This document shows positions 24,842-52,524 of a stretch of DNA of 61,173 nt, in pieces. Numbering within the stretch: the stretch's first letter is position 1; each line of letters starts with the position of its first letter. The notes under the pieces are model-generated. The model was not told where the DNA came from, searched no databases, and saw nothing but the letters and a program-made list of their open reading frames with translations. The translations under genes were made by a program, and so were the position numbers. Origin of the DNA: Syntrophaceae bacterium. GTDB lineage: Bacteria; Desulfobacterota; BSN033; UBA1163. The stretch covers positions 1-61,173 of the forward strand of contig JACAEX010000010.1 of assembly GCA_013388635.1 (NCBI GenBank), given 5' to 3'.

Positions 24842-24853
24842 AGGTCGTAGGTA

Positions 24854-26775: not shown

Positions 26776-26850
26776 AAAATGGACGATGAACGATGAACCA
26801 TGAATGATGAACAAAAGACAATGAACTGTTGATCGTCCATCGTCGTTACC
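26776..26850. repeat. heptad repeat (GACGATG/AACGATG type)
   Basis: Seven-base units GACGATG, AACGATG, AACCATG, AATGATG and GACAATG are followed by the partly complementary GATCGTC and CATCGTC. The gap lies within the antiporter cluster between mrpC-like and mrpD-like genes. Confidence 0.75.
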
Positions 26851-26884
26851 GTGAGAAGGGCCGCTTCATTTTCTAATTGGGACT

Positions 26885-29913: not shown

Positions 29914-29931
29914 GGAGGTGAATGGATCAGG

Positions 29932-30171: not shown

Positions 30172-30191
30172 ATTCGGGGGCGAGGACATAG

Positions 30192-33240: not shown

Positions 33241-34286
<1,046 letters not shown>

Positions 34287-35985: not shown

Positions 35986-36009
35986 ACTTTGGATTGTGGA
36001 GGCCTGAGA

Positions 36010-36921: not shown

Positions 36922-36957
36922 CCCCTTGGTAGAAAGAGGCCAGGGGGTTAAGATTTT
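36920..36957 (+). terminator. hairpin terminator after the prenyltransferase
   Basis: AACCCCTTGG (36920-36929) pairs with CCAGGGGGTT (36940-36949) with one wobble, followed by AAGATTTTT. It separates the TCA/prenyltransferase unit from the Hdr block. Confidence 0.75.
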
Positions 36958-36975: not shown

Positions 36976-37389
36976 ATGAAGATAGAGCTGACGAGACAGA
37001 AGGTTCACAACGAATTTGCAAAGAAGGTGGAGCTGATCAGCGGGCAGAATCTCTTCGCCTGTTATCAGTGCGGGAATTGCACAGCGGGGTGTCCGATTTC
37101 CTTCGCGATGGAGATCGGTCCTCATGAAGCCATTCGTTATACCCTTCTCGGTCTGGAAGAAGAGGTCCTTGGAGTGAATACTTTTTGGCTCTGCGCCTCC
37201 TGCCTTCAGTGTACATCGAGATGTCCGAAGGGGATCGATATCGCCAGGGTAATGGATGCCTTACGAATGGTCGTGTTGAGAAGAAAGGAGAGGAGGGATC
37301 ACATTCAGATTTCCGAATTTCCAGAAGGATTTTTGGAAAAGGTTCCTCAGATCGCGTTTATCAGTGGATTCAGAAAGTTCCTTTCCTAA
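36976..37389 (+). CDS. HdrC-like iron-sulfur protein (copy 1)
   Basis: This 137-residue protein has two 4Fe-4S motifs, C29-C32-C35-C39 (CYQCGNCTAGCP) and C73-C76-C79-C83 (CASCLQCTSRCP), the arrangement of heterodisulfide reductase subunit C. It should pass electrons between an HdrA flavoprotein and HdrB. GGAGAG precedes ATG 36976. It is the first gene of a C-B-A set. Confidence 0.9.
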   Translation: MKIELTRQKVHNEFAKKVELISGQNLFACYQCGNCTAGCPISFAMEIGPHEAIRYTLLGLEEEVLGVNTFWLCASCLQCTSRCPKGIDIARVMDALRMVVLRRKERRDHIQISEFPEGFLEKVPQIAFISGFRKFLS

Positions 37390-37445
37390 TCAAAGCCAGG
37401 GCATGGAGTTGTTCTTTTTTAACGCTATGCAGGTAGGAGTTGTGG

Positions 37446-38315
37446 ATGGATTACCTTTATTTTCCAGGATGCACCCTTTATACGAAGGCAAAGAATTTCG
37501 ATCAGACAGCCCGGAACTGTTCTCTTCTTCTGGGATTTGAGCTGAAGGAGCTTCCCAATTGGACCTGTTGCGGAGCGACCTTTCCCTTAGCAACCGACAA
37601 CCTGATGGCCCTCCTTCCCCCTGCGAGGATCCTGGCCAGTGCGAGGGAGCAGGGCACGGTCCTCACCACGCTCTGCGCCGTCTGCTTTAACGTGATCAAG
37701 AGGACGAATCGGCTCTTTCAGGAAGACGGCGAGAAGAGGGATAAGATCAACAATTTTATCGAAAAGAATTATCAGGGTGACCTCCGGGTGGTCCATTACC
37801 TGGAAATCCTGAAGCAGGAAGTCGGATTTCCCCAGCTCAAGGAGAGGGTGAAGAGACCTTTGACCGGGCTCCGGGCAGCCCCGTATTATGGGTGTATGCT
37901 CCTCCGTCCCTTTGAGGAGATGGAATTTGATGACAAAGAGAGACCCACGATTTTTGAAGGGTTCTTAGAGGCATTGGGAGCAAAGGTGGTCGAGTTCCCC
38001 TATAAGATCGAATGCTGTGGGTCCTTCCAATCCGTGGGTTCGCCCGATGTGGCCACAGAGTGTGCCTACAAGATCCTGGGCTCTGCCATGAAGAACGGAG
38101 CAGAGGTGGTCGTCTCCACGTGCCCGATGTGTACCTTCAACATCGATCACAAGCAGTCTGACATCAAGCAGAAGTATCTGGACTTCAAAACGATCCCGGT
38201 CCTCTATTTTACCCAACTGCTCGGAATCGCCATGGGCCTTGACCATCGAACCCTCGGATTTGAGCAGAACTTTGTTGATCCTTTACCATTGTTGAAGGGG
38301 AAAGGGCTCGTATAG
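37446..38315 (+). CDS. HdrB-like protein with two CCG domains (copy 1)
   Basis: This 289-residue protein has both cysteine-rich CCG modules complete: C9, C41-C42, C77, C80, and then C150, C190-C191, C226, C229. In HdrB these ligate two noncubane 4Fe-4S clusters that split a disulfide. It therefore probably performs thiol/disulfide chemistry on a still unknown partner. ATG 37446 follows AGGAG. An upstream TTG is less likely. Its stop directly touches the HdrA-like start. Confidence 0.9.
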   Translation: MDYLYFPGCTLYTKAKNFDQTARNCSLLLGFELKELPNWTCCGATFPLATDNLMALLPPARILASAREQGTVLTTLCAVCFNVIKRTNRLFQEDGEKRDKINNFIEKNYQGDLRVVHYLEILKQEVGFPQLKERVKRPLTGLRAAPYYGCMLLRPFEEMEFDDKERPTIFEGFLEALGAKVVEFPYKIECCGSFQSVGSPDVATECAYKILGSAMKNGAEVVVSTCPMCTFNIDHKQSDIKQKYLDFKTIPVLYFTQLLGIAMGLDHRTLGFEQNFVDPLPLLKGKGLV

Positions 38316-39626
38316 ATGAAAGGCAATGGTGCCTTTGTAAAAAGGGCGATGGTGATCGGTGGAGGGATTGCTGGAATCTCTGCCTCTCTTGATTTGGGAA
38401 ATGCGGGGTATGATGTGGTTCTGGTGGAGAAACTTCCCTCGATCGGAGGCCGGATGCTTCAGCTTTCGGAAACCTTTCCGACGCTGGACTGCGCCCAGTG
38501 CACCTTGACCCCTAAGACAGTGGAGACAGGCCAGCATCCTCGAATCAAACTGGTCACCTATTCAGAAGTGGAGGGGATTGAGGGAAAGGCTGGAGATTTC
38601 TCGGTGAGCATCCGGAGAAAGGCGGCCTACGTCGATTGGGAGAGGTGCACGGGTTGCGGCCTCTGTCAGCAGAAATGCCCCTCGAAGAATCCATCTGAAT
38701 TTGATCGAGGGATGGGACTGGGCAAGGCGATCTATACGCTATCGCCGCAGGCCGTTCCGAACAAACCTGTGATCGATCCCTCTCACTGTCGGTACTTTAA
38801 AGAGGGGAAGTGTCGGGTGTGTGAAAAGATCTGTCCGGTCAAAGCGATCGACTATGAACAGAAGGATCGCCTAGTGGAGGAGAGGGTCGGGGCCATTGTG
38901 GTCGCCGTCGGTTTTGATTTGATCCCGAAAGAGAGCTTTGGGGAGTATGGATATGGCGAACTCCCCGATCTGATCGATGGCCTTGCCTTTGAAAGGCTCA
39001 ATTCAGCCTCCGGCCCGACCACCGGTGAGATCAGGAGGCCCTCAGATGGAAAAGTCCCGAAGGAGGTGGTCTTCATCCAGTGCACGGGATCAAGGGACCC
39101 TGAACGTTATATGCCCTATTGCTCCCGGGTCTGTTGCATGTACACGGCCAAGCACGCCCGGCTCTACAAACATAAAGTCCATGATGGTCAGGCCTATATC
39201 TTCTATATGGATATCCGTTCAACGGGCAAGGGTTATGAGGAGTTCATCCAGCAGGGGATGGAAGAGGAGGGGATTCTCTATCTGAGGGGAAGGGTCTCCC
39301 GAATCTTCAGGGATGGAGAGAAGCTGATCGTCTGGGGTGCGGACACATTAACCGGAAGGAAGGTTGAGGTTTCTGCAGACCTGGTGGTCCTGGCTACGGC
39401 CATGACCCCGCGAAAAGAGGCAAAGGAACTGGCCAAGAAACTGGGGATCGAGGCCGATGACCACGGGTTCCTGACCGAGGCTGAGAGGAAATTGAGGCCT
39501 GTGGAGACCAAGGTCGAAGGAATCTATCTCGCAGGCTGTGCCCAGGGGCCGAAGGATATTGCGGATTCCGTGGCCCACGCCAATGCTGCAGCGAGCAAGG
39601 TTCAGGCGCTGTTTGCAAAACATTAA
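38316..39626 (+). CDS. short HdrA-like flavoprotein (copy 1)
   Basis: This 436-residue FAD and iron-sulfur protein begins directly with the FAD motif GGGIAG (15-20) and lacks the N-terminal domain of full HdrA. The HdrA-specific cysteine motif FPTLDCAQCTLTPK (C59, C62) is intact. Two ferredoxin-like motifs follow: C111-C114-C117-C121, and C158 with C166-C169-C173. The conserved CTGSRDPERYMPYCSRVCCMYTAKHA is present. It lacks the C-terminal ferredoxin domain, so it resembles the QmoA-like short forms. It probably forms a complex with the HdrC and HdrB just upstream. Confidence 0.9.
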   Translation: MKGNGAFVKRAMVIGGGIAGISASLDLGNAGYDVVLVEKLPSIGGRMLQLSETFPTLDCAQCTLTPKTVETGQHPRIKLVTYSEVEGIEGKAGDFSVSIRRKAAYVDWERCTGCGLCQQKCPSKNPSEFDRGMGLGKAIYTLSPQAVPNKPVIDPSHCRYFKEGKCRVCEKICPVKAIDYEQKDRLVEERVGAIVVAVGFDLIPKESFGEYGYGELPDLIDGLAFERLNSASGPTTGEIRRPSDGKVPKEVVFIQCTGSRDPERYMPYCSRVCCMYTAKHARLYKHKVHDGQAYIFYMDIRSTGKGYEEFIQQGMEEEGILYLRGRVSRIFRDGEKLIVWGADTLTGRKVEVSADLVVLATAMTPRKEAKELAKKLGIEADDHGFLTEAERKLRPVETKVEGIYLAGCAQGPKDIADSVAHANAAASKVQALFAKH

Positions 39627-39790
39627 AGCATAATATCGAAATTCGAAGCACGAAATCCGAAACAGACACGAATTCTCCAAATAACAATGACCCAAACAAG
39701 AGTAATTGGTTTAGAATTTTGAAATTTGAAATTTAGGATTTGTTTCGAGTTTCGATATTCGGATTTCGAATTTATTCACAAACATGATTG
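39627..39790. repeat. heptad-periodic inverted repeat (TTCGAA-rich type)
   Basis: AATTCGA, AGCACGA and AATCCGA units are answered by CGAGTTT, CGATATT, CGGATTT and CGAATTT. It closely matches the first 160 bases of the window. It lies between two HdrA genes. Confidence 0.82.
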
Positions 39791-39828
39791 TTACGATCAG
39801 AGCGAGTTAGGCATATTAGAAGCGCATC

Positions 39829-41781
39829 ATGAGAAAGCTGGGTGTCTTTATCTGCCACTGTGGCGTCAATATTGCGGGAACGGTTGATGTGAAATCGGTC
39901 GCCGAAGAGATGGGCAGGGTGGAAGACGTTGCCCACAGCACGGATTACATCTACATGTGTTCTGAGCCAGGGCAGCAGATCATCCGGGAGGCCATTCGTG
40001 AGAAAGGGCTGGAGGGGGTGGTGGTCGCTTGCTGCTCGCCCAGCATGCACGAGAACACATTCCGAAAGGCGGTCAAGTCTCAAGGGATGAACCCTTATCT
40101 CTGTGAGATCGCCAATATCAGGGAACAGTGTAGCTGGGTTCATCAGAAGGATAGAGAAGAGGCAACCCGAAAGGCAGCGGAGATCATTTTAGCCACCCTT
40201 GAGAAGGTGAGAAAGAATGAATCCCTTGAACCGATTGCGATGGCCATCGATCGGAGGGTGTTAGTGATCGGCGGAGGGATTGCGGGGATGACCGCTGCCC
40301 TCGATCTGGCTGAAGGGGGGTATGGGGTCGTCCTGATCGAAAGAGAGCCTGGCCTGGGCGGGCACATGGCTCAACTCTCGAGAACCTTTCCGGACCTTGA
40401 CCCGGCTCTTCCCGGGCTGGTCGCAAAGGCCTCCGCGGTCGAAAGACATCCGAAGATCAACCTTCTCTGTTATTCAGAGCTCGAGGACGTGAAGGGTTAT
40501 GTTGGGAATTTCGATCTGACCGTCCGGAAAAAGGCGACGCTGGTCGATTGGGAGAAATGCAACGGGTGTGGCGATTGTATAAGGGATTGTCCAGTGGAGT
40601 ACGCCTCTCCGTTTGAGAGGGGTCTGGGGATGCGAAAAGCGATCGATCTCTTCTATCCAGACTCTGTTCCCAGCAAGCCTGTCATCGATCGGGAACACTG
40701 CCAGTATTTCCTGGATAAGGGATGCAGACGGTGTGAGGAGATCTGCCCTAAGAAGGCGATCAACTTTGCACAGAAGGATGAGCGGATCGAGCTCAAGGCC
40801 GGAGCCATTGTCGTTGCGACCGGATACGAGCTCTATCCGATGGAGCGGTTGGGAGAGTACGGATATGGTCAGATTCCCGATGTGATTGACGGCCTGGCCT
40901 TCGAACGGATGCTCTCTCCCAATGGCCCGACCAGAGGGAAGATCCTCAGGCCCTCCGATGGGAAGGTGCCGAAGGAGATGGTCTTTATCCAGTGCGTGGC
41001 ATCAAGAGATCCGGATCGATATATGCCTTACTGCTCCAGGGTCTGCTGCATGTACACAGCCAAACACGCCTCCTTCTATAAAGAGCAGGTTCCGGATGGG
41101 CAGCCCTATATCTTCTACATGGATATCCGCTCGGACTGCAAAGGCTATGAGGAGTTCCTTCAGAAGACGATCGAAGAGAGGGGGCTCCTTTACCTCAGAG
41201 GCCGGGTGTCAAGGGTCTTCCAGGACGATGGCAAGGTGAGGGTGCTTGGAGTGGATACCCTGACTGGAAGAATGGTGGAGGTGGCAGCCGACATGGTGGT
41301 CTTGGCCACGGCCATCGTTCCGAGTCCAGGGGTGAAAGATCTGGCAGCCAAATTGAGAGCAACGGTGGATCGACACGGTTTTTTGACGGAGGCCCATATC
41401 AAGCTCTATCCCGTGGAGAGTTCGACCAAAGGGATCTACCTTGCAGGATGCGGCCAGAGCCCGAAGGACATTTCAGACACGGTCTCTCAGGCATCAGCCA
41501 CGGCCAGCAAGATTCAGGCCCTGCTCTCAACGGACAAACTCCTTCAGGATCCCCTGATCGCCTTTGTCGACGAGGGGATCTGCAGCGGATGCGGGATCTG
41601 CGTGGAGATCTGTCCCTATGAAGCGAGGGAGATGGATCGGCGTCGAGGGATTTCCGTCGTTCACGAAGCCCTTTGCCAGGGATGCGGAGCGTGCATCGCT
41701 GCCTGTCCGAATTTTGCATGTGAACTGCGCAACAGCTCTGCGAGTCAGACCCTTCGGATGGTCGATACGTTTGTGGCTTAG
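39829..41781 (+). CDS. full-length HdrA-like flavoprotein (copy 2), altered cluster motif
   Basis: This is a 650-residue protein with the complete HdrA layout: N-terminal domain GVFICHCGVNIAG, FAD motif GGGIAG (148-153), ferredoxin motifs CNGCGDCIRDCP and CRRCEEICP, and a C-terminal double ferredoxin (CSGCGICVEICP and CQGCGACIAACP). The HdrA-specific LDCAxC motif is changed to LDPALP, with both cysteines replaced by proline (P192, P195), so that cluster is probably missing. It forms a set with the HdrC and HdrB copies downstream. Its ribosome site is weak. Confidence 0.9.
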   Translation: MRKLGVFICHCGVNIAGTVDVKSVAEEMGRVEDVAHSTDYIYMCSEPGQQIIREAIREKGLEGVVVACCSPSMHENTFRKAVKSQGMNPYLCEIANIREQCSWVHQKDREEATRKAAEIILATLEKVRKNESLEPIAMAIDRRVLVIGGGIAGMTAALDLAEGGYGVVLIEREPGLGGHMAQLSRTFPDLDPALPGLVAKASAVERHPKINLLCYSELEDVKGYVGNFDLTVRKKATLVDWEKCNGCGDCIRDCPVEYASPFERGLGMRKAIDLFYPDSVPSKPVIDREHCQYFLDKGCRRCEEICPKKAINFAQKDERIELKAGAIVVATGYELYPMERLGEYGYGQIPDVIDGLAFERMLSPNGPTRGKILRPSDGKVPKEMVFIQCVASRDPDRYMPYCSRVCCMYTAKHASFYKEQVPDGQPYIFYMDIRSDCKGYEEFLQKTIEERGLLYLRGRVSRVFQDDGKVRVLGVDTLTGRMVEVAADMVVLATAIVPSPGVKDLAAKLRATVDRHGFLTEAHIKLYPVESSTKGIYLAGCGQSPKDISDTVSQASATASKIQALLSTDKLLQDPLIAFVDEGICSGCGICVEICPYEAREMDRRRGISVVHEALCQGCGACIAACPNFACELRNSSASQTLRMVDTFVA

Positions 41782-41783
41782 GG

Positions 41784-41828
41784 GACCGCTATGCGCATAA
41801 CGCTGAGCGCTTAGCGTCCTTCAGAGTT
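41784..41828. repeat. heptad repeat (CGCTNAG type)
   Basis: Units CGCTATG, CGCATAA, CGCTGAG, CGCTTAG and CGTCCTT fill the short gap before the second HdrC gene. Related units occur at 46630-46715 and 47144-47185. Confidence 0.75.
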
Positions 41829-41843
41829 AAGGAGGAGATAAAA

Positions 41844-42398
41844 TTGGAATCGGTTGTCGAAACTGTAAAAACTGGTACCTCTTTCTTGGAAGAGGCCAAA
41901 AGGCGGAGCGGAGAGGATCTCAGCCTCTGTTACCAGTGTCTGAAGTGTACGGCAGGCTGTCCGACTGCACCCTTCATGGACGTCCGGCCCAATAACCTCA
42001 TCCGGATGATTCAGATGGGAAGGAAGGAGGAGGTGCTCGGAAGCAGCGCCATCTGGCTCTGCGTCTCCTGCGAGACCTGCGGGACGCGATGTCCCAACAA
42101 GATTGATATCGGTGTGTTGATGGATGCGCTAAGAGAGATGGCCATTGAGGAGGGGATACCGGCCAAGGAGAGGAATATCCATCTGCTTCATGAGGCCTTT
42201 GTTCAGAGCATCAAACGGGGAGGAAGGGTTCATGAGGCGACCATGCTGATTGACTATAAACTGAGAAGCAGGGATTTCCTGACAGACCTCATCCCCGGCA
42301 TGATGCTGTTTCTAAAAGGTAAGATCCCGCTCTTCCCCAGCTTCATCAAGGGAAGGGAGGAGATCAAAAGGATCTTTGAAAAATGTGAAAAGAAGTAA
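41844..42398 (+). CDS. HdrC-like iron-sulfur protein (copy 2)
   Basis: This is a 184-residue protein with CYQCLKCTAGCP and CVSCETCGTRCP 4Fe-4S motifs in its first 90 residues. The C-terminal extension (about 105-184) is longer than in copy 1 and ends in a basic amphipathic stretch. Translation begins at TTG 41844 behind GGAGGAG. It should relay electrons between the second HdrA and the second HdrB. Confidence 0.88.
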   Translation: MESVVETVKTGTSFLEEAKRRSGEDLSLCYQCLKCTAGCPTAPFMDVRPNNLIRMIQMGRKEEVLGSSAIWLCVSCETCGTRCPNKIDIGVLMDALREMAIEEGIPAKERNIHLLHEAFVQSIKRGGRVHEATMLIDYKLRSRDFLTDLIPGMMLFLKGKIPLFPSFIKGREEIKRIFEKCEKK

Positions 42399-42540
42399 AT
42401 CCGAAGCACGAAATCCGAATTGCGAAACAAATTCGAATGACCGAAATGGAAAATTGAAAGGGTTGATGACGATGTTTGGGAAATTTGGTCATTTGGATTT
42501 CGGATTTAGATATTGGAGTTTCGAATTTTCGCGGGCTAGG
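42399..42540. repeat. heptad-periodic inverted repeat (TTCGAA-rich type)
   Basis: Left units CCGAAGC, ACGAAAT, CCGAATT and GCGAAAC are answered by TTTGGTC, ATTTGGA, TTTCGGA, TTTAGAT and TTCGAAT on the right. It lies between the second HdrC and HdrB genes. Confidence 0.8.
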
Positions 42541-42549
42541 GAGGGTTAG

Positions 42550-43395
42550 ATGAAATTTTCTTATTTTCCAGGTTGCACGGATCACTCTACCTCTTATGAG
42601 TATGGCCGGTCAACCGAGGCGGTCTTCAGGGCCCTGGGTGGGGAATTGGTCGAGATCGAGGATTGGAACTGCTGTGGAGCGGCAGCCACTCACAGCATCA
42701 ATCGTCTGCTCTCCCTCTGCCTTCCAGCAAGAAATATCTCCAAGGCTCAATCCGCGCAAGTCGGACCTCTGGTCGTTCCCTGCGCCGGTTGTTTCAATAT
42801 GCTCAAGAGGACGGAGTATGCCCTCAAAAACGATGAGGCCAAACGGAAGGAGATCGAGGAGATCGTGGGCTTCAGGTACGATCCATCGTTTGAGATCCTG
42901 GCCCTGATGGATCTGATCGTCAATCGGATCGGTACGGAGAAGGTCCGGGAGAGGGTCAAACGGTCCTTGAAAGGACTGAAGCCTGCTTGCTACTATGGGT
43001 GCGCGCTGGTCCGGCATCCCAAGATAACCCAGCTCGATGACCCGGAGAATCCTCAATATCTCGATCGTTTGATGAAGGCCCTGGGCGCTGAACCGATCGA
43101 ATGGTCTTATAAAGTAGACTGCTGCGGTGCGGACTTAGCCCTCACCTATGGCAATGTGGTGAAGAAATTGGTGGGCAGGATTGTGTCGATGGCCAAAGAG
43201 GCAGGCGCTCAATGCATTGTCACCTCCTGCGGCCTCTGTCAGGCCAACCTCGAGATGAGGCAGGAAGTGGATCTTCCCATCTTTTACTTTACAGAGTTGA
43301 TGGGCGTTGCCTTCGATGTGGAGGGAAGAGACCAATGGTGGAAGAAACATATGATCTCTCCCAAAAGGCTGTTAGAATCGTTGGGGTTGGCATAG
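42550..43395 (+). CDS. HdrB-like protein with two CCG domains (copy 2)
   Basis: This 281-residue protein has both CCG modules: YFPGCTDHS with CCGAAATHS and PCAGC, then YYGCALV with DCCGADLAL and SCGLC. The cysteines expected for two noncubane clusters are retained. AGGGAGG precedes ATG 42550. With the HdrA and HdrC just upstream it makes a second A-C-B set, in an order different from the first C-B-A set. Confidence 0.9.
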   Translation: MKFSYFPGCTDHSTSYEYGRSTEAVFRALGGELVEIEDWNCCGAAATHSINRLLSLCLPARNISKAQSAQVGPLVVPCAGCFNMLKRTEYALKNDEAKRKEIEEIVGFRYDPSFEILALMDLIVNRIGTEKVRERVKRSLKGLKPACYYGCALVRHPKITQLDDPENPQYLDRLMKALGAEPIEWSYKVDCCGADLALTYGNVVKKLVGRIVSMAKEAGAQCIVTSCGLCQANLEMRQEVDLPIFYFTELMGVAFDVEGRDQWWKKHMISPKRLLESLGLA

Positions 43396-43565
43396 ATGAT
43401 GCAGTAACCAATGACCCAGCACCCATGACCATATAGTAACGAAAAAACCAATATGCAATTTTAATTGGAACATTGTTTGGTGATTGGAATTGGGTAACTG
43501 GTGATTATGTGGTGATTGGGATTTGGTTATTGGAAATTCAATTCCAACAATAAATATTAGCAGCA
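43396..43565. repeat. heptad repeat (GGTGATT type)
   Basis: CCAATGA, CCCAGCA and CCCATGA units are followed by a run of GGTGATT, GGAATTG, GGTAACT, GGTGATT, GGGATTT and GGTTATT. The gap lies before the double HdrA gene. A related spacer occurs at 57379-57535. Confidence 0.78.
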
Positions 43566-43575
43566 GAGGAACGAA

Positions 43576-46500
43576 ATGCAAAATGGGAAGGTCAAGGGGG
43601 ATAGAGGGTCGGTATTGGTGATCGGTGCGGGGATTGCAGGAATGCAGTCTGCGCTTCTACTGGCAGAGACGGGGAGAAAGGTATTTCTCTTGGAACAGGG
43701 GCCTGCCATCGGCGGATATTTTCCTCTGCTCGACAAAACCTTTCCTACAAACTCCTGCGGGGTCTGTTTCATGAGCCCGACGCCCCCTGCTTTTTGCCCG
43801 ATTTATGAATGTCACCTCCACGAGCATATCGAATTGTTGCCCTACTCCGAGGTTTTGAAAATTGAAGGAGAGGGAGGCGATTTTAGAGTCTCGGTCCTCC
43901 GGAAACCTCGGTTCGTCGACCCCGGACGATGCACGCTCTGCGAGGCCTGCATCAAGGTCTGTCCTGTCGAGGTGGAGAGAGAATTCGGCGGAGGGCTGGA
44001 GAAACGGAAAGCGATCTACCTTCCATTTCCCCAGGCGATTCCCCATAGCCTGGTTATCGATCCGAAGACCTGCGTCCGATGCCAGGAGTGTGTCAAGGTC
44101 TGCGCTCCGGGTGCGATCGATCTCAATATGAAAGAGGAGCAGGAGACGATCAACGTGGGAGCGATGATCTTAGGATTTGGGTTTGAACCATTCTGGGCAC
44201 AGAGGAAAGGGGAGTACGGCTTTGGTCGGTATGCAAATGTGCTGACGAGCATTCAGTTTGAACGGATGCTCTCGACATCGAGCCCTACGCAGGGGGTTCC
44301 GAAGCGGCTTTCAGATGGAAAGAGGATCGAGAGGATTGCATTTATTCAGTGTGTGGGGTCGCGCGACCCTTCCTGCGGCCAGGATCATTGCTCCACCATC
44401 TGCTGTATGTATGCGACCAAACAGGCCATGATTGCAAAGGAAAGATCCCCGGACCTCGAGGTCACCTTCTTCTACATGGATGTCCGGCCGATGGGAAAGG
44501 ATTATGAACGATATTACGAGCGGGCAAAGGGCGAATACGGGATCGAATACAGGCGGTGTGCCATCTCAACCATCAAAGAACTGCCCGGGAGCAGGGATCT
44601 TCGGATCACCTATGTCAAAGAGGATGGGACCTTTGAGGAGAAGGATTTTGATGCGGTTGTCCTTTCCGTGGGTTTCACCCCGCCGCAGACCATTAAGGAT
44701 TTGGCGGAGAGGATGGGTCTTCTCTTAAACCCGCAGGGCTTCTGCCAGACCGGTGAGTTCAATCCGGCTGAGACCTCGGTTAAGGGAATCTTTGTAGGAG
44801 GGGCATTCCGAGGGCCCAAGGACATCCCGGAGACAGTGGTAGAAGGGGCGAGTGCGGCAGCTGGAGCCGCCTCCTTTCTTTCGATGTATCGTCCTCCTGA
44901 TCAGAAGAAGGAGTATCCTGCAGAGGGGGCCATATCCGAAGAGGTTCCGAAGATCGGGGTCTTCGTCTGCCATTGTGGAGAGGAACTGAAGAAGTACCTC
45001 TCCATCTCCAACCTGATGGATGAGGCCAAAGGAATGAGAGAGGTGGCCCATGTGGAAGAGGTCGGTTTGGCATGCCTTCCCGAGGGTCTCGATTTGATCA
45101 AGAGGAGGATAGGAGAGCACGGCCTGAACCGAGTCGTGGTTGCGGGTTGTTCCCATCGGGAGATTCGGAAGGCCATGGAAGAGATGGCGAAAGCCATGGG
45201 CTTCAATCCTTACCTGATCGAGTACGCCAACATCCGGGAGCAATGCGCTTTTGTCCATCGAAACGATCAGGAGCTTGCGACCGAAAAGGCAGAGGTTCTG
45301 ATCCGAATGGCTGTCGAGCGGGCCCGGAAAGCCCAGCCCATTCGGAAAGGGAGAGCGATGGTTGTGAAGAAGGGCTTGGTGGTCGGGGGGGGCCTTTCCG
45401 GCATGACCGTCTCTCTTCGGCTGGCAGAGCAGGGATACGAGGTCCACCTGGTCGAGAAAGAAAGAGAACTCGGCGGGAATTTGAAAGAGGCGTTTTATAC
45501 GTTGAAGGGCTCTGATCCCCAAGCCCTTTTACAGAACCTGGTCAGGGAAGTGGAGAAGAATGGGATGATCCGCATCTATACCGGAGCAGAGGTCCTCGGA
45601 TTTGAAAAGAGAAACGGACACTACCGGACAAAGATCCGCTTTCAGGGCGTCGGAGGCTCGACTCTACGAGAAGAGAAGGACCTCGACCATGGGGTTCTGA
45701 TCCTGGCAACAGGTGGAAAGGAGATCAGTCCGAAGGGGTATCTTTACGGAGAGGATAGCCGGGTGATCACGCAGCGGCAGTTGGAGAAGATGATCCATCT
45801 GAATGACGAAAACCTGAAGGATTTCCGTTCCGTGGTGATGATCCAGTGTGTAGGCTCGAGGGATGAAGAGCATCCTTACTGCAGTCGCATCTGCTGTGGT
45901 CATGCGGTAAAGAACGCCCTGAAGTTAAAGGAGAGAGATCCCGGTATGGATGTTTATGTCCTCTACCGAGACGTCCGGACCTATGGGTTTTACGAGAGCT
46001 ACTACCATGAGGCAAGAGGCAAAGGGGTGATCTTCATTCGCTATGACCTGGAGAACAGGCCAGAGGTGACTCTTCGAAATGGGAACCTTGAAGTCTCGGT
46101 CTTCGATCCGGCGATGGGCAGGCCGGTCACGTTATCTCCGGACCGCATCGTTCTGAGCACGGGGATCGAACCCAACGACCAGCAGGAGCTGGCAAAGATT
46201 TTCGGTGTCGAGCTTAATTCGGATGGTTTCTTTGCGGAGGCCAATCCAAAATCGGCGCCGCTCGATTCGGTGGACCGCGGAAAATTCTTCTGCGGCCTCT
46301 GTCATTCACCCAATTTCATCGAGGATTCGATCTCTCAGGGGAATGCCGCAGCGATCCGGGCTGCGACGATCCTGTCCAAGGAGGCGGTTGAGGAGAAGGC
46401 CTATCTGGCTTATGTGATCAAGAGGCTCTGCTGCGGGTGCGGCCTCTGTGTCACGGTTTGTCCGTATGGAGCAAGGGTCCTCAATGAGGAGGAAGGGAAG

Positions 46501-46629
46501 GCAGAGGTGATCGGGGCGCTCTGCCAGGGATGTGGCTCCTGCGTGGTCGCCTGTCGGAATGCAGCCTCTCAGCAGCGAAACTTTGAGAAAGATCTGAACA
46601 TGGCTGTCCTCGATGCAGCCATCGAATGA
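43576..46629 (+). CDS. double HdrA-like fusion flavoprotein (copy 3)
   Basis: This 1017-residue protein contains two HdrA-like units. Unit 1 (about 1-450) starts at FAD motif GAGIAG, with a variant FPTNSCGVCFMSPTPP cysteine region and ferredoxin motifs CTLCEACIKVCP and CVRCQECVKVCA. Unit 2 (about 455-1017) begins with the HdrA N-terminal domain GVFVCHCGEEL, has FAD motif GGGLSG, and ends with a double ferredoxin (CGCGLCVTVCP and CQGCGSCVVACR). Two FADs in one chain suit electron bifurcation. The MvhD-like gene immediately downstream would dock at the C-terminal ferredoxin region. AGAGGAAC lies before the ATG. Confidence 0.9.
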   Translation: MQNGKVKGDRGSVLVIGAGIAGMQSALLLAETGRKVFLLEQGPAIGGYFPLLDKTFPTNSCGVCFMSPTPPAFCPIYECHLHEHIELLPYSEVLKIEGEGGDFRVSVLRKPRFVDPGRCTLCEACIKVCPVEVEREFGGGLEKRKAIYLPFPQAIPHSLVIDPKTCVRCQECVKVCAPGAIDLNMKEEQETINVGAMILGFGFEPFWAQRKGEYGFGRYANVLTSIQFERMLSTSSPTQGVPKRLSDGKRIERIAFIQCVGSRDPSCGQDHCSTICCMYATKQAMIAKERSPDLEVTFFYMDVRPMGKDYERYYERAKGEYGIEYRRCAISTIKELPGSRDLRITYVKEDGTFEEKDFDAVVLSVGFTPPQTIKDLAERMGLLLNPQGFCQTGEFNPAETSVKGIFVGGAFRGPKDIPETVVEGASAAAGAASFLSMYRPPDQKKEYPAEGAISEEVPKIGVFVCHCGEELKKYLSISNLMDEAKGMREVAHVEEVGLACLPEGLDLIKRRIGEHGLNRVVVAGCSHREIRKAMEEMAKAMGFNPYLIEYANIREQCAFVHRNDQELATEKAEVLIRMAVERARKAQPIRKGRAMVVKKGLVVGGGLSGMTVSLRLAEQGYEVHLVEKERELGGNLKEAFYTLKGSDPQALLQNLVREVEKNGMIRIYTGAEVLGFEKRNGHYRTKIRFQGVGGSTLREEKDLDHGVLILATGGKEISPKGYLYGEDSRVITQRQLEKMIHLNDENLKDFRSVVMIQCVGSRDEEHPYCSRICCGHAVKNALKLKERDPGMDVYVLYRDVRTYGFYESYYHEARGKGVIFIRYDLENRPEVTLRNGNLEVSVFDPAMGRPVTLSPDRIVLSTGIEPNDQQELAKIFGVELNSDGFFAEANPKSAPLDSVDRGKFFCGLCHSPNFIEDSISQGNAAAIRAATILSKEAVEEKAYLAYVIKRLCCGCGLCVTVCPYGARVLNEEEGKAEVIGALCQGCGSCVVACRNAASQQRNFEKDLNMAVLDAAIE

Positions 46630-46715
46630 TAGAAAAAGCATAGCGCATAGAGCATCGCGCATAGCGAAAAATCTCTCGACGCTCAGCGCTTTGCGCTCTG
46701 CGACGAAGAAGGAGG
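46630..46715. repeat. heptad inverted repeat (CGCATAG / CGCTCTG type)
   Basis: AGCATAG, CGCATAG, AGCATCG and CGCATAG are answered by CGCTCAG, CGCTTTG and CGCTCTG. The gap separates the HdrA fusion from the MvhD-like gene. Confidence 0.8.
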
Positions 46716-46720
46716 AAGAG

Positions 46721-47143
46721 ATGGCCGACTTTGAGCCGAGGATCGTAGCCTTTCTATGCCACTGGTGTACGTATACAGGAGCTGATCTTGCAGGAACGAC
46801 CCGGCAGCAATATCCGCCGAACATCCGTATCATTCACCTGATGTGTTCCGGAGCGGTCGATTCCATCTATGTGCTTAAGGCATTGATCGACGGAGCGGAT
46901 GGGGTGCTGATCGGAGGCTGCCATCCGGGAGACTGCCATTACCAAACAGGAAACTATAAGGCCCGGAGAAGGGTGGCCATTCTGAAGGGGATCCTGAATC
47001 AGATGGGCTTTACCGAGGATCGCATCTGGCTGAGGTGGATCAGCGCCAGCGAGGGAAAGCTCTTTGCGGATACCGTGACGAAGATGGTCGAGGAACTGAA
47101 GAAGATGGGTCCAAATCCTATGAAACAACTCTGGGATGCCTAA
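46721..47143 (+). CDS. MvhD/FrhD-type 2Fe-2S electron transfer subunit
   Basis: This 140-residue protein has FLCHWCTYTGADLAG, RIIHLMCSGAVDSIYVLKAL and DGVLIGGCHPGDCHYQTGN, the hallmark cysteines of the hydrogenase delta subunit that feeds electrons to HdrA. The true start is ATG 46721 behind GGAGG. The longer frame upstream is repeat DNA. It links a donor module to the double HdrA upstream. No hydrogenase large subunit is in view, so the donor is probably the FrhB-like protein next to it. Confidence 0.92.
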   Translation: MADFEPRIVAFLCHWCTYTGADLAGTTRQQYPPNIRIIHLMCSGAVDSIYVLKALIDGADGVLIGGCHPGDCHYQTGNYKARRRVAILKGILNQMGFTEDRIWLRWISASEGKLFADTVTKMVEELKKMGPNPMKQLWDA

Positions 47144-47185
47144 TAAAAAGCACGCTAAGCGCTATGCGCCTGGCGATAGGGAAAG
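47144..47185. repeat. heptad repeat (GCGCTAT type)
   Basis: CACGCTA, AGCGCTA, TGCGCCT and GGCGATA units lie between the MvhD-like and FrhB-like genes. They are short and related to the 46630 element. Confidence 0.6.
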
Positions 47186-47199
47186 GAGATTTGCTGAAG

Positions 47200-48348
47200 A
47201 TGGCGAGACATGGGGTGATTAAGGTTTCGGAGGGGAGGACCGAAGAGGCTATCATCGGGATTCTGAAGTCCCTTTTGGAAAAGAGGGTCGTTGAGGCCAT
47301 TCTCATACCCAAAGGAGTTCCTTCTGGAGAGGGGTTCGTCCAGAGTTTGATCCGGGATCCCGAGAAGCTGAATGGGGTATCTGTGATTTCACCCACGATG
47401 CCGGTTCAGTCTGCGAGGGTGGCTTCCAATCTGACCTTTAAAAACCTGGGTAAGAAAGTGGCTGCCGTGTTAAAACCCTGCGAGATCAGGGCCACTGTGG
47501 AGCTGGCCAAGTTTCTTCAGGTCAAACTGGACAATCTCTATCTCATCGGAACCGATTGCCCCGGAACTTTTGAAGTGCCTGATTATGCAAAGATGTCTCA
47601 GGAGGGAAAGGGAGGCGAGAGGTTGAGAGCGGCATTGCTCAAAGGGATGAGCGAAGGCGAGGTTCCGATGATCGATGGATACGCCTTTCGGACAGCCTGT
47701 CAGATGTGCGAATATCCGGTCCCGCAGGCAGATATGGTCTTCGAGCTTTTTGGTTACCCAAGCGATCAGGAGATAGGCGTTGAGGTGGGAGAAAATTTAG
47801 AAAAGGAGATTGAGGAGAAGGAAATTCTCTCTTTTTCCAAAGAGGGCTCCAGGAATCGAGCCGATGTGATCGGAAAGGTGACTGCTGAGAGGATGAAGAA
47901 AAGAGATGGGTTCTTCCAGGAATTTAGAGAGGTGGTCAAGGACCTCCGATCCTTCCTGGATCGATTTTCTACCTGCATTCGATGTCACAACTGCATGGTG
48001 GCCTGTCCGATCTGTTACTGCAAGGAATGTGTCTTCAGGACACCGGTCTTTGAGCACGAGGGGGACCAGTTTCTGAGATGGGCGGATCGAAAGGGTGCGA
48101 TCCGGATGCCGACCGACACCCTGATCTTTCACCTCATCCGGATGTCTCACATGGTCACCTCCTGCATCGGATGTGGACTCTGCGATAGCGCCTGTCCAAG
48201 CCGGCTGCCGGTAGCCACCCTCTTTCGAAGCGTAGGAGACAGGATTCAGAAGATGTTCCAGTATGTCCCCGGAAGGGATGTGAAGGAGACGCCACCTGTG
48301 GCCACCTTCAGAGAGGATGAACTGAAGATCGAATCAGGATCACTTTGA
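47200..48348 (+). CDS. FrhB/FdhB-family flavin iron-sulfur oxidoreductase
   Basis: This 382-residue protein belongs to the F420-hydrogenase/formate dehydrogenase beta-subunit family. The core reads VAAVLKPCEIRATVELAKF and GTDCPGTFEV, with a cysteine pair in FRTACQMCEYP. Iron-sulfur motifs occur in CIRCHNCMVACPICYCKECVF and CIGCGLCDSACPSRLP. Such proteins bind FAD and oxidise F420, NAD(P)H or another carrier. The substrate cannot be read from sequence. I choose ATG 47200 (AGGAG at 47184-47188). An earlier ATG at 47164 lies inside the heptad repeat. It lies between the MvhD-like and fumarate-reductase-like genes. Confidence 0.85.
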   Translation: MARHGVIKVSEGRTEEAIIGILKSLLEKRVVEAILIPKGVPSGEGFVQSLIRDPEKLNGVSVISPTMPVQSARVASNLTFKNLGKKVAAVLKPCEIRATVELAKFLQVKLDNLYLIGTDCPGTFEVPDYAKMSQEGKGGERLRAALLKGMSEGEVPMIDGYAFRTACQMCEYPVPQADMVFELFGYPSDQEIGVEVGENLEKEIEEKEILSFSKEGSRNRADVIGKVTAERMKKRDGFFQEFREVVKDLRSFLDRFSTCIRCHNCMVACPICYCKECVFRTPVFEHEGDQFLRWADRKGAIRMPTDTLIFHLIRMSHMVTSCIGCGLCDSACPSRLPVATLFRSVGDRIQKMFQYVPGRDVKETPPVATFREDELKIESGSL

Positions 48349-48440
48349 AAAGCATTATGGGATAATGGAACGATGGAATAATGTTTTTTAAAAATTAGGC
48401 AATCCCATAGTTCCAATATTCCATTATTCCAGAAGGGAAT
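48349..48440. repeat. imperfect inverted repeat (GGAATAATG type)
   Basis: AGCATTATGGGATAATGGAA on the left and AATATTCCATTATTCCAG on the right can pair across a T/A-rich middle. It fills the gap before the iron-sulfur subunit gene and belongs to the same class of gap element. Confidence 0.7.
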
Positions 48441-48478
48441 GTTGCATGAACGTTGGTTGATGACGGCAGGAGGATTCA

Positions 48479-49219
48479 ATGGAAGCAGAAAAGAAAGAGA
48501 AGGAAGATCTCGTTCCGATCTTTATCATGGGAAAGCGGTACGAAGTTCCCTCTTCCCTGACCATCCAGAAGGCGATGGAGTATGCCGGGTATCAGTTGAT
48601 CCGAGGATGTGGCTGTCGGGGAGGGATCTGCGGGGCTTGCGCCACGGTCTACCGATTTCCGGGAAGTTATAAGATCGAGGTGGGGCTGGCCTGTCAGACC
48701 GTTGTCCAGCCCAATATGTACCTGACGCAGATCCCCTTCTTTCCGGCGACGAAAAGTGTCTATGACATCGAGAAGATAAAACCCACGATTGAAACGCTGG
48801 TAAAGGCGTACCCGGAACTGTTGCGATGTCTGCAATGCAATACGTGTACGAAGTCCTGCCCGATGGAGATCGAGGTCATGGACTACATCGCAGCGGCGAT
48901 GAGGGGCGACGTGGCTCGACTGGCGGAACTTTCATTCGACTGTGTGATGTGCGGCCTTTGCACGGCCCGATGCCCGGCTGAGATCTGCCAGTACAATATC
49001 GCGATCCTTGGAAGGCGGCTTTACGGCAAATATATTGCCCCGAAGGCAGAACACTTAGCCTCGATGGTGAAGGAGGTTGAGAAAGGTAGGTATGAGCAGA
49101 TGCTCAGGGAACTGATGGACACCGATGAAGAGACTCTTAAAAAGCTCTACAACGAAAGGGAGATCGAGCCTGAACAGGCGGGTGAAGACTGGACGCCAAA
49201 AGACAAAACGTACCTATAG
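48479..49219 (+). CDS. soluble fumarate reductase/succinate dehydrogenase-like iron-sulfur subunit
   Basis: This 246-residue protein has an N-terminal 2Fe-2S domain (C46, C51, C54, C72, in CRGGICGACATVY). Two four-cysteine motifs follow, C117-C120-C123-C127 (CLQCNTCTKSCP) and C155-C158-C161-C165 (CVMCGLCTARCP). Ordinary SdhB has a 3Fe-4S cluster in last place, whereas here the motif is that of a 4Fe-4S. The C-terminal tail is charged. AGGAGG precedes ATG 48479. It pairs with the flavoprotein gene downstream. No membrane-anchor subunit is present. Confidence 0.87.
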   Translation: MEAEKKEKEDLVPIFIMGKRYEVPSSLTIQKAMEYAGYQLIRGCGCRGGICGACATVYRFPGSYKIEVGLACQTVVQPNMYLTQIPFFPATKSVYDIEKIKPTIETLVKAYPELLRCLQCNTCTKSCPMEIEVMDYIAAAMRGDVARLAELSFDCVMCGLCTARCPAEICQYNIAILGRRLYGKYIAPKAEHLASMVKEVEKGRYEQMLRELMDTDEETLKKLYNEREIEPEQAGEDWTPKDKTYL

Positions 49220-49395
49220 AAAGAAAAATTCGAAGCACGAAATTCGAAATCCGAGACAATCCCTAATGACCCAAATTCAAAAATTAAAACCTATAATTTA
49301 TCGCGTTTTGGAAATTAGGACTTTTGAATTTAGATTTGTTTCGACTTTCAATATTCGGATTTCGGATTTTCCGATGCGTAAAACGCATTGGAGCG
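49220..49395. repeat. heptad-periodic inverted repeat (TTCGAA-rich type)
   Basis: AATTCGA, AGCACGA, AATTCGA and AATCCGA units on the left are answered by TTCGACT, TTCAATA, TTCGGAT and TTCGGAT on the right. It matches the elements at 9-155 and 39627-39790. It lies between the two subunit genes. Confidence 0.82.
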
Positions 49396-49405
49396 CGGAG
49401 GTTTT

Positions 49406-51079
49406 ATGCCATATACGAGAGAATTAAAGGAGCTGATCAAAAGAGTGGAGGCAACCAGACCTGCACGGGTGGAAAGAAAGAGGAGGGGCGAGGAGTTTCC
49501 CGTGCTTTCCCTGAAGGAGAGGGAGGAACGACTCAGAAAGTATCACCCCGATTTCAAGGAGGGTTCGAGGACGGAGATCCGTGTGGGACCGAGTAAGGGG
49601 TATGCGATCTCTCCTGAGATCGTAAACCTTTTGGAGGCTAAAAGCAGGGTCGATCCGGATGCGATCGATCTGACAAAGGTTGCGTATGAAACCGATGTGC
49701 TCATCCTTGGCGGAGGCGGTGCTGGCACAGCCGCGGCCTTGACCGCTCAGGAGAATGGAGCAAAGGTCCTGATTGCGACCAAATTGAGGCACGGGGATGC
49801 CAACACCATGATGGCCGAGGGTGGCATCCAGGCGGCCACCAAAGGGACGAAGGATTCACCTTACTATCATTACCTCGATGTATTGGGAGGAGGCCATTTT
49901 AAGAACGTTCCAGAACTTGTTTACACCCTTGTGACGGAAGCGCCGAAGGTTATAGCGTGGTTAGAGGGGCTGGGCTGTATGCTCACCAAATTCCCTGAAG
50001 GACAGCTCAAGGCCCTCCACGGAGGTGGGACGTGCCGGAAGAGGATGCATTATGCCGCGGATATCACCGGCGCAGAGATTATGAGAACCCTAAGGGATGA
50101 GGCGAGGAACCGGCCTGAAGATATCAAGGTCCTCGAGTTTTGCCCGGCCGTGGAGTTGATCTTGAATGAATATGGACACTGTGCGGGCGCAGTTCTCTAT
50201 AATTTAGAGACCGAGGAATATTTTGTCGTAAAGGCCAAAGCGGTCATTATGGCGACAGGTGGTTCGGGAAGGCTCCATATCCAGGGATTCATGACGACCA
50301 ATCATTACGGTGCAACCGGGGATGGCCTGATTTTAGGCTATCGTGCCGGTGTTAAATTGTGTTTCCTCCATACCGTCCAGTACCATCCGACTGGTGCCGT
50401 CTTCCCCGAACAGGCAGAGGGCCTCCTGATCACAGAGAAGTTTAGAGGGGCAGGGGCCAATGCCCTTAATATTGATGGGGAGCAATTTGTCAATGAGAGA
50501 GAGCCGAGGGATGTGGAATCTGCCTCATTCATCCGTGAATGCACGGAGGTGGGGAAAGGGGTTCCAACCCCAACAGGGAAGGTGGGTGTTTGGTTGGATT
50601 CACCGATGATCGACATCCTGATGGGCGAAGGAGCGGTGAAAAGAGAATTTCCTGGAAAGTACATCCTATTCAAGCGGTTCGGGATCGACATCTCAAAGGA
50701 GCCCATGCTGGTCTATCCCACGCTCCATTATCAGAACGGAGGGTTGGAATATAACAGTCGTTGTGAGACCTCCATTCCTGGATTCTTTGCGGCAGGCGAG
50801 GTTTCAGGCGGTGTCCATGGAGAGAATCGATTGATGGGGAATTCTCTTCTCGACGTCTGCGTCTTCGGAAGAATTGCCGGCGTCAGCGCTGCTCTTTACG
50901 CGAAAGAGAGATTCCAAGAGGGGAGATTGACCCTGGATCATGTGCGCAGGTACCACAGGGAACTGGAGGAGGCAGGGATCATCACGGACCGTGTGGCGCC
51001 GATGCTGCTTCCCGATTACTCCAATCCCAAAGTGCGAGAGCGGCAGCTGACCACCCGCTATCTCGGCACGATCCGTTAG
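49406..51079 (+). CDS. soluble fumarate reductase/succinate dehydrogenase-like flavoprotein
   Basis: This 557-residue FAD enzyme has the FAD motif GGGGAG at 102-107, preceded by an unusual basic N-terminal extension of about 95 residues. The catalytic site is kept: HTVQYHPTG (322-330), TEKFRGAGA with Arg347, and HGENRLMGNSLLD. In SdhA/FrdA the FAD is bound through a His in HTVAAEGG. Here the matching position is Asn133 (NTMMAEGG), so FAD is probably non-covalent, as in soluble thiol-linked fumarate reductases or aspartate oxidase. It starts at ATG 49406 behind GCGGAGG. With Hdr genes upstream and succinyl-CoA synthetase downstream, I favour fumarate/succinate chemistry linked to Hdr. Confidence 0.87.
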   Translation: MPYTRELKELIKRVEATRPARVERKRRGEEFPVLSLKEREERLRKYHPDFKEGSRTEIRVGPSKGYAISPEIVNLLEAKSRVDPDAIDLTKVAYETDVLILGGGGAGTAAALTAQENGAKVLIATKLRHGDANTMMAEGGIQAATKGTKDSPYYHYLDVLGGGHFKNVPELVYTLVTEAPKVIAWLEGLGCMLTKFPEGQLKALHGGGTCRKRMHYAADITGAEIMRTLRDEARNRPEDIKVLEFCPAVELILNEYGHCAGAVLYNLETEEYFVVKAKAVIMATGGSGRLHIQGFMTTNHYGATGDGLILGYRAGVKLCFLHTVQYHPTGAVFPEQAEGLLITEKFRGAGANALNIDGEQFVNEREPRDVESASFIRECTEVGKGVPTPTGKVGVWLDSPMIDILMGEGAVKREFPGKYILFKRFGIDISKEPMLVYPTLHYQNGGLEYNSRCETSIPGFFAAGEVSGGVHGENRLMGNSLLDVCVFGRIAGVSAALYAKERFQEGRLTLDHVRRYHRELEEAGIITDRVAPMLLPDYSNPKVRERQLTTRYLGTIR

Positions 51080-51110
51080 GTTTTATCATCTCTTTGAATG
51101 GATAGATCGG

Positions 51111-51140
51111 GGGCTCGGTTTTCAACCGAGCCCTTTGATT
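51111..51140 (+). terminator. intrinsic terminator closing the Hdr-fumarate reductase block
   Basis: A perfect 10-bp stem, GGGCTCGGTT (51111-51120) with AACCGAGCCC (51124-51133), a TTC loop, and a T-rich tail. It separates the redox block from sucCD. Confidence 0.9.
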
Positions 51141-52436: not shown

Positions 52437-52515
52437 TCTGGAGTAATGAGTTCGTAGTTCGGAGTCTCTAGTTTGAGGCTCAAAACTCAAAACTATGAAC
52501 TCTCAATTCTTACCG
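52437..52515. repeat. heptad inverted repeat (GTTCGGA / AACTCAA type)
   Basis: GTCTGGA, GTAATGA, GTTCGTA, GTTCGGA and GTCTCTA are answered by AACTCAA, AACTATG, AACTCTC and AATTCTT. It fills the sucC-sucD gap without breaking the operon. Confidence 0.82.
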
Positions 52516-52524
52516 GAGGTAAGC

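Follow-up and report, generated by a model that had tools for sequence, protein, structure and literature searches.

Eleven genes of a Syntrophaceae bacterium (GenBank assembly GCA_013388635.1, contig JACAEX010000010.1), which occupy positions 36976-51079 of the plus strand, probably encode a soluble, Hdr-coupled and electron-bifurcating fumarate reductase of the reductive tricarboxylic acid (TCA) branch (probability about 0.57). The whole stretch of DNA analyzed, 61,173 nucleotides in length, is referred to as the window, and the genome from which it comes as the window genome. The genes follow one another in the order HdrC1-HdrB1-HdrA1-HdrA2-HdrC2-HdrB2-HdrA3-MvhD-FdhB/FrhB-like-TfrB-TfrA with intergenic gaps of 0-202 bases; gene set, order and single strand agree with an initial annotation made from the DNA letters, all genes of which were located. 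The name Tfr is used for convenience only, because E. coli FrdA and NadB outscore the TfrA of the window on the model of the methanogen TfrA. NADH-driven fumarate reduction is strongly exergonic, and a soluble enzyme wastes this energy if the reaction is not coupled to another. If the proposed function holds and is common, it would explain how many anaerobes might gain the reduced ferredoxin needed for reductive carboxylation with no membrane step involved, and it would link fumarate reduction to the supply of ferredoxin in their reductive TCA branch.

Conservation of the Hdr-Tfr Neighborhood

Within the taxonomic order of the window genome, orthologous TfrA (84-91% identical) and TfrB are present in 15 of 17 genomes, the window genome included (in G010 on separate contigs), and G003 and G006 hold only a lone TfrA paralog of 72-73% identity. 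A search of relatives for the same gene order, as suggested in the initial annotation, recovered the complete arrangement from malate dehydrogenase (mdh) to TfrA in nine of them; mdh lies 5' of the Hdr genes also in relatives from the same order, and the contigs of G014, G013 and G009 end within the Hdr part. The observation is much more general than one locus: the TfrB family (E ≤ 1e-30) occurs in 100 of a sample of 395 phylum genomes, and a scan restricted to two peptide patterns found it in 69 named loci, whose titles include Zixibacteria, KSB1, Aminicenantes, Fermentibacteria/Aegiribacteria and Gemmatimonadota. Three genomes of the sample that carry the cluster (G207, G036, G375) are assembled as a single contig.

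Loci were fetched from 80 of the 87 TfrB-bearing phylum genomes outside the order (G093, G058, G181, G226, G199, G149 and G041 were left out) and were counted where the flanks reached at least 5 kb on the upstream side and 2 kb on the downstream side, which applies to 50 of the 80 phylum loci and 44 of the 69 named loci. The phylum counts use one locus per genome and exclude second copies, and the named set overlaps with the phylum set, as it includes loci of the order and some phylum-set contigs. HdrA or HdrB adjoins TfrB in 43 of the 50 phylum loci; related loci are not independent, so the count by families (21 of 25) is preferred. Among the named loci, HdrA or HdrB is found in 36 of 44, the commonest type being HdrCBA-MvhD (16 loci), and neither adjoins canonical SdhB in any of seven loci from the order. 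The neighborhood is thus conserved far above chance, since 43 of 50 loci carry Hdr genes while the window genome has only about seven HdrA clusters (matches grouped by hand) in 3.42 Mb, and the view that Hdr and TfrAB belong together is borne out.

The Hdr part itself is exchangeable. The double HdrA-MvhD-FdhB-like type of the window is found in 17 of the 50 phylum loci, from nine families, with HdrC-HdrB sometimes placed 3' instead of 5'. Eleven loci combine Hdr with FlxABCD, six have HdrCBA with a 2-oxoglutarate:ferredoxin oxidoreductase (OGOR) placed between Hdr and Tfr, eight have HdrC-HdrB only, and one has HdrCBA-MvhD. Examples are L262 (fumB-HdrC-HdrB-HdrA-MvhD/FlxD-FlxC-FlxB-FlxA-TfrB-TfrA-sucC-sucD, followed by kor genes) and L206 (mdh-fumA-fumB-HdrC-HdrB-HdrA-KorD-KorA-KorBC-TfrB-TfrA-sucC-sucD). 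The fetched flanks contain sucC in 27 and fumB in 14 of the 50 phylum loci, and 2-oxoglutarate synthase genes lie near 16 of them. When these arms are mapped as labels onto the TfrA tree, with partial loci labeled too and any locus bearing an FdhB-like gene counted as window type, 23 changes are needed; the minimum is 10, and shuffles give 66.6. The TfrA head therefore mostly retains its arm, with several swaps, although gaps in the assemblies may account for part of the changes. The window-type label alone needs seven changes, at least five of them by starred branches, which implies repeated gain or loss of this arm. Such module swapping names the donor arms for comparison. It might even point to a widespread class of reversible, soluble, bifurcating fumarate reductases, in which one conserved head is combined with exchangeable Hdr arms (FlxABCD with NADH; an Elp-like FdhB-MvhD arm with double HdrA and a non-F420 donor; or direct coupling to 2-oxoglutarate synthase), a generalization that we put forward tentatively.

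The Flavoprotein and Its Iron-Sulfur Partner

TfrA (557 aa, 49406-51079) belongs to the fumarate reductase/aspartate oxidase superfamily; it is homologous to fumarate reductase, succinate dehydrogenase (SDH) and aspartate oxidase, and passes the Pfam model FAD_binding_2. On all 25 NCBIfam models among the matches listed (48 matched) it stays below the cut-off. Its score is 333 bits on the methanogen TfrA model NF004900 (cut-off 718), on which E. coli FrdA and NadB reach 438.8 and 399.9 bits, and 281 bits on the SdhA/FrdA model (cut-off 567); methanogen TfrA was compared solely through such model scores. An identity as L-aspartate oxidase was rejected, as the cut-off of the NadB model TIGR00551 was missed (261 vs. 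452.75 bits). About 95 residues precede the FAD domain, and the Succ_DH_flav_C domain, which canonical relatives carry, gave no match in TfrA at E 1e-10. In a tree of 100 rows, thinned from 170 by merging rows at least 88% identical and built by a quick method that returned long-branch warnings, 89 TfrA-type proteins stand apart from SdhA, FrdA and NadB on a long branch with 100% support in the SH-like approximate likelihood ratio test (SH-aLRT). By sequence, TfrA thus appears to represent a deep flavoprotein lineage that stays under the cut-off of each of the curated families for fumarate reductase, SDH, TfrA and NadB.

The histidine that binds FAD in E. coli FrdA is replaced by asparagine in the window TfrA, as the initial annotation had pointed out, and in 159 of the 161 rows of an alignment that includes the window protein and has some contigs twice. 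The two rows with histidine probably represent SdhA-type proteins encoded at the same loci, and the covalent-FAD histidine is kept in all six SdhA proteins from loci with canonical SdhB. The FrdA residues His233, Glu246, Arg288, His356 and Arg391 (Met counted) form the dicarboxylate site; the first four are invariant across all 161 rows, and Arg391 is found in 159, with a gap in the remaining two. Together with the neighboring mdh, fumarase and sucCD genes, these conserved residues argue for fumarate/succinate as the substrate, in line with the link to these acids that had been made at the outset.

TfrB (246 aa, 48479-49219) contains one 2Fe-2S set and two CxxCxxCxxxCP sets, the eight 4Fe-4S cysteines of which are invariant in 35 aligned proteins. 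One of the two sets occupies the site of the usual 3Fe-4S motif, so that the 4Fe-4S motif reported there earlier is real and general. TfrB reaches only 23 bits on the dhsB model (cut-off 88). It lacks a fused CCG domain, with no match to PF02754, and CCG proteins are encoded as separate genes. On the methanogen TfrB model of 488 positions, TfrB covers 19-108, HdrB2 263-465 and HdrB1 408-477. The predicted model of TfrB has a predicted local distance difference test score (pLDDT) of 86, and a Foldseek search with it returned HdrC chains among the first matches and FrdB (1kf6_B) as the 14th, with low template modeling (TM) scores throughout, which agrees with kinship to either without deciding between them.

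Hdr Subunits, Donor Arm and Energetics

Three types of HdrA are encoded, as had been claimed: HdrA1 (436 aa, 38316-39626) is the core only, i.e., the FAD domain with an inserted ferredoxin and without the N- and C-terminal cluster domains; HdrA2 (650 aa, 39829-41781) is full length; and HdrA3 (1017 aa, 43576-46629) is a double HdrA according to its alignment to 5odc_A and its cysteines. The alignment of HdrA3 falls into three stretches, comprising a core HdrA (about 12-436), the N-terminal domain together with the first part of a second FAD domain, and the last part of that FAD domain with the C-terminal ferredoxin. Residues 557-758, the expected site of the inserted ferredoxin in the second FAD domain, are free of cysteine. 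HdrA1 and HdrA3 have a CxxC beside the FAD domain, which HdrA2 lacks. The associated subunits are HdrC1 (137 aa, 36976-37389, two 4Fe-4S motifs), HdrC2 (184 aa, 41844-42398), HdrB1 (291 aa, 37440-38315) and HdrB2 (281 aa, 42550-43395), both HdrB proteins having two CCG stretches (PF02754 twice). Two full CCG motifs are found in 55 of 63 relatives of HdrB1 (three in five, one in three) and in 48 of 48 relatives of HdrB2, some contigs being counted twice. Further HdrA/MvhD clusters of the window genome lie at G000:C44:16038-19626 and G000:C64:30894-34353, where the matches span an in-frame TGA, possibly a selenocysteine codon.

The donor arm consists of an MvhD-type 2Fe-2S subunit (140 aa, 46721-47143; PF02662, 175 bits) and a flavo-iron-sulfur subunit of 382 aa (47200-48348). 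The latter had been described as FrhB-type, to which it is kin, but its best resemblance, over nearly its full length, is to the FdhB/ElpB chains of methanogen Hdr complexes (9t1s_M, 7bkb_E, 8rvu_E; also by Foldseek). Its 15 cysteines are invariant in 16 aligned proteins, each opposite a cysteine of 9t1s_M. The predicted model of this subunit has a mean pLDDT of 65; the N-terminal part alone is confident, and residues 255-382 are below 50. F420_cofD was matched in none of the 17 genomes of the order, while the same model exceeded its cut-off in 3 of 14 named genomes used as a control. F420H2 is therefore probably not the donor, which leaves NAD(P)H as the most likely one. Of the coupling partners considered in the initial annotation, F420 is thus disfavored, and ferredoxin and NADH are plausible, because the clusters of relatives hold FlxABCD or OGOR genes.

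The products of all eleven genes may act as a single complex. In the proposed mechanism, the FdhB-like flavin subunit would be reduced by hydride transfer from a donor in the cytoplasm, for which NAD(P)H is the best candidate, and MvhD would hand the electrons to an HdrA flavin. From there, one electron could travel up to TfrAB and fumarate via HdrC/HdrB-type clusters, and the other down to ferredoxin, which might serve 2-oxoglutarate synthase or ion pumps. TfrB would feed electrons to TfrA via its one 2Fe-2S and two 4Fe-4S clusters, and TfrA would reduce fumarate to succinate. The potentials are +30 mV for fumarate, -280 to -320 mV for NADH and -420 to -500 mV for ferredoxin. Computed from these assumed values, the reaction of 2 NADH with fumarate and ferredoxin yields about -17 to -48 kJ/mol, so that a ferredoxin-coupled fumarate reductase would be affordable; with menaquinol as the donor, the same reaction would cost 47 to 62 kJ/mol.

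Other TfrAB Copies and Membrane-Bound SDH

The window genome contains a second TfrA-TfrB pair without Hdr genes (L061 8217-10593, i.e., G000:C30:13217-15593), which is about 55% and 51% identical to the first. Upstream of it lie a TctABC-like transporter and a PrpF-like gene, and downstream aconitase, isocitrate dehydrogenase and then kor genes; the kor genes of this genome are thus on contig C30, outside the unit in the window. (Transporter, PrpF, aconitase, isocitrate dehydrogenase, cytochrome, NrfD and CoA-transferase neighbors were named by eye.) The second pair may have aconitate/tricarballylate as its substrate or a role in the TCA cycle. Lone TfrA paralogs without TfrB in the fetched stretch were seen at L045 11303-12973 and in L039, L040, L047, L052, L056, L058, L059 and L060, and the eight rows of such paralogs in the tree form one supported group. 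The copy in L045 adjoins CoA-transferase, MaoC-like, TctABC-like transporter and PrpD/MmgE-like genes, again by eye.

Canonical SDH is common in the same organisms. SdhB exceeds its cut-off in 15 of the 17 genomes of the order; in a chosen set of 25 genomes, three of them from the order, it does so in 18. The two enzymes thus usually coexist; a division of labor by direction would fit this coexistence, which is no proof of it. The anchor model Sdh_cyt exceeds its cut-off in 1 of the 17 genomes, namely the window genome. One contig of this genome also carries dsrA (above cut-off), a second dsr-like match and DsrC; across the order, DsrC is found in five and dsrA above cut-off in four of the 17 genomes.

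Alternative Explanations

Several observations weigh against a bifurcating fumarate reductase. Two HdrBC sets and three HdrA genes exceed the needs of a minimal bifurcating complex. TfrAB is found without HdrA or HdrB in 7 of the 50 phylum loci and 8 of the 44 named loci, so the TfrAB head is not tied to Hdr; in L202 (4951-12933) and L113 (3969-12423), for instance, it lies with cytochrome, FMN-binding membrane and NrfC/NrfD-like genes (by eye) and no Hdr, possibly as a membrane-linked version of the same head. Furthermore, the window genome encodes a membrane-anchored SdhCAB. The initial annotation had named FrdAB-like genes free of Hdr and a separate anchor gene as findings that would speak against it, and both exist to some extent: the former in these seven phylum loci and in the second pair of the window genome, the latter in SdhCAB, though this enzyme comes with its own SdhA and SdhB.

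The same complex could run in reverse as a confurcating SDH, in which electrons from succinate and reduced ferredoxin would meet at HdrA and reduce an intermediate carrier. This direction is unlikely, and so is the role that would go with it, a quinone-free succinate oxidation for a sulfate reducer or syntroph: the dsr genes of the window genome make an oxidative metabolism likely, and mdh, fumarase and sucCD can be used either way, but the reaction would cost 17-48 kJ/mol with NADH (from the same assumed potentials), and an anchored SDH is already present. Alternatively, HdrA might be a mere conduit without any bifurcation, in a split thiol:fumarate reductase whose HdrBC part oxidizes a dithiol or protein thiol and whose TfrAB part reduces fumarate. 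The eight phylum loci with HdrC-HdrB alone 5' of TfrBA and the two CCG stretches in each of HdrB1 and HdrB2 are compatible with such an enzyme, as are the matches to the methanogen TfrB model, which TfrB covers N-terminally and the HdrB proteins over the rest, as if split. It is nevertheless quite unlikely, as it leaves MvhD, the double HdrA and the FdhB-like subunit (17 of 50 loci) as well as FlxABCD (11 of 50) unexplained. DsrC as an obligatory thiol partner was rejected, since the 12 of 17 genomes of the order that gave no DsrC match all have orthologous TfrA and TfrB.

A different substrate, such as aconitate/tricarballylate, mesaconate or aspartate, is brought to mind by the paralogs, which adjoin other genes of acid metabolism (by eye), the second pair with TctABC, PrpF-like, aconitase and isocitrate dehydrogenase genes and the lone TfrA with CoA-transferase, MaoC, TctABC and a PrpD-like gene. 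For the copy in the window this is very unlikely, given the flanking mdh, fumAB and sucCD, the sucC and fumB genes beside its phylum relatives (27 and 14 of 50) and the missed NadB cut-off. Least expected of all is a quinone-linked enzyme, in which an HdrB-like subunit would be the monotopic membrane anchor, like SdhE of 8-methylmenaquinol:fumarate reductase (MFR). HdrB1 and HdrB2 do score almost equally on the SdhE and HdrB models (186.6 and 186.8 bits for HdrB1, 144.7 and 140.4 for HdrB2), and a UbiA-family gene lies upstream, but none of these scores comes near its cut-off (500 and 345), TfrA reaches 211 of the required 1100 bits on the MFR flavoprotein model, the UbiA gene is mostly missing at this place in relatives, and bifurcation with menaquinol would be strongly uphill. 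A soluble, Hdr-coupled fumarate reductase that would bifurcate electrons, most likely from NAD(P)H, remains our preferred explanation.

Borders and Neighbors of the Unit

The two border hairpins and the flanking genes from mdh to the UbiA-family gene and from sucC to sucD lie on the plus strand. The unit is framed by two terminator-like hairpins of 12 pairs each, one at 36919-36950 on the left and one at 51109-51135 on the right. The strong terminator that had been placed at 51111-51140 thus exists at a slightly different position and has a counterpart at the other border. Only these two strongest hairpins are taken as borders, because the 18 terminator-like sites of the region are no more than expected (17.8 in shuffles); stems of 12 pairs occur at the two borders only. 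Pieces of about 130-145 bases of a dispersed, partly inverted repeat, similar to repetitive extragenic palindromic (REP) or miniature inverted-repeat transposable (MITE) elements, lie in three gaps (39636-39776, 42397-42529 and 49225-49369) and account for much of their length.

By hydropathy, none of the eleven proteins is anchor-like; HdrA3 has two stretches barely above the cut-off, and a soluble SdhA used as a control has one. The absence of a membrane anchor thus stands for the unit, but not for the genome, which has SdhCAB elsewhere. The largest additional open reading frame within 36976-51079 has 265 aa and is antisense to HdrA3, so the operon is without an ElpA/FdhA gene. FlxA and FlxB were not found among the eleven genes, which do include an FlxD-like MvhD and the FdhB-like gene.

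Upstream lie mdh (33357-34286; TIGR01763, 507.5 bits, above cut-off), the fumarase genes fumA (alpha, 34445-35284; NF004885 above cut-off, PF05681) and fumB (beta, 35370-35927; PF05683), and the UbiA-family prenyltransferase gene (35989-36921; PF01040), which among the fetched loci of the order occurs at this site only in L050. Downstream, the next unit starts with the succinyl-CoA synthetase genes sucC (beta, 51273-52436; PF08442, PF00549) and sucD (alpha, 52495-53406; PF02629, PF00549). Farther away, 24305-32042, 5' of mdh, holds genes read by eye as membrane subunits of the Mrp-antiporter/NADH dehydrogenase-like type, and 18448-20292 encodes an HMGL-like protein of the homocitrate/isopropylmalate synthase type with a fused PDC sensor domain; this protein may, we presume, be a Re-citrate synthase.

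Comparison With Known Systems

A quinone-linked complex II differs from the window enzyme in having the covalent-FAD histidine, the 3Fe-4S motif and an anchor gene in the operon. Methanogen TfrAB, in contrast, is an anchor-less pair as in the window. Its B subunit carries one 2Fe-2S and two 4Fe-4S clusters (PMC11223495), the same set as in the window TfrB. The latter differs in lacking a fused CCG domain, and the window TfrA, with 333 bits on the methanogen model, falls below FrdA (439) and NadB (400).

The donor arm and its HdrA partner have also been described in other settings. In the Elp-Hdr complex, the ElpB-type subunit oxidizes F420H2 and ElpC/MvhD relays electrons to HdrA (PMC12350162), and an HdrA-MvhD fusion enzyme bifurcates with F420H2 (PMC5296606). 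The window resembles methanogen Elp-Hdr and Fdh-Hdr (8rvu, 7bkb) in using an FdhB/ElpB-like flavin subunit plus MvhD/ElpC as the HdrA donor arm, but it lacks an FdhA/ElpA gene, its organism probably makes no F420, and the operon includes a fumarate reductase pair. For Desulfobacterium autotrophicum, HdrA and HdrL genes with mvhD are described, and formate dehydrogenase subunit B at four loci (PMC2702500). DsrC has been reported to interact with Flx-Hdr (Ferreira, 2023, as referenced in PMC10553843).

Coupling of fumarate reductase to Flx-Hdr-type complexes has already been proposed in print for cultured organisms and symbionts. The "succinate operon" of the cultured Pseudoclostridium thermosuccinogenes has the two genes of a fumarate reductase, for which ferredoxin coupling was proposed, together with fumarase and NADH dehydrogenase/Hdr genes (PMC7282089). 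By gene content the window is alike, with an anchor-less fumarate reductase pair clustered with HdrABC, but it is without FlxA/FlxB and has a double HdrA, MvhD, the FdhB-like subunit and a second Hdr set. In Thioflavicoccus, also cultured, and in tubeworm symbionts, a reductive TCA cluster comprises korABCD, tfrAB and flxABCD-hdrABC, and direct electron transfer as well as a complex feeding both fumarate reductase and OGOR were suggested (PMC6315080; PMC11636981). There, too, tfrAB is interspersed with Hdr genes, whereas the window has another donor module, belongs to another phylum and has no kor genes in the unit. The arrangement of double HdrA, MvhD, FdhB-like subunit and TfrAB was not found in the literature, which is weak evidence of absence, as subscription papers were thinly covered and preprints excluded. 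Compared with these systems, the new elements are the Elp-like donor arm in organisms where F420 is probably not made, the swapping of modules around a conserved head, the breadth of the distribution, and a flavoprotein below the NCBIfam cut-offs among the matches listed.

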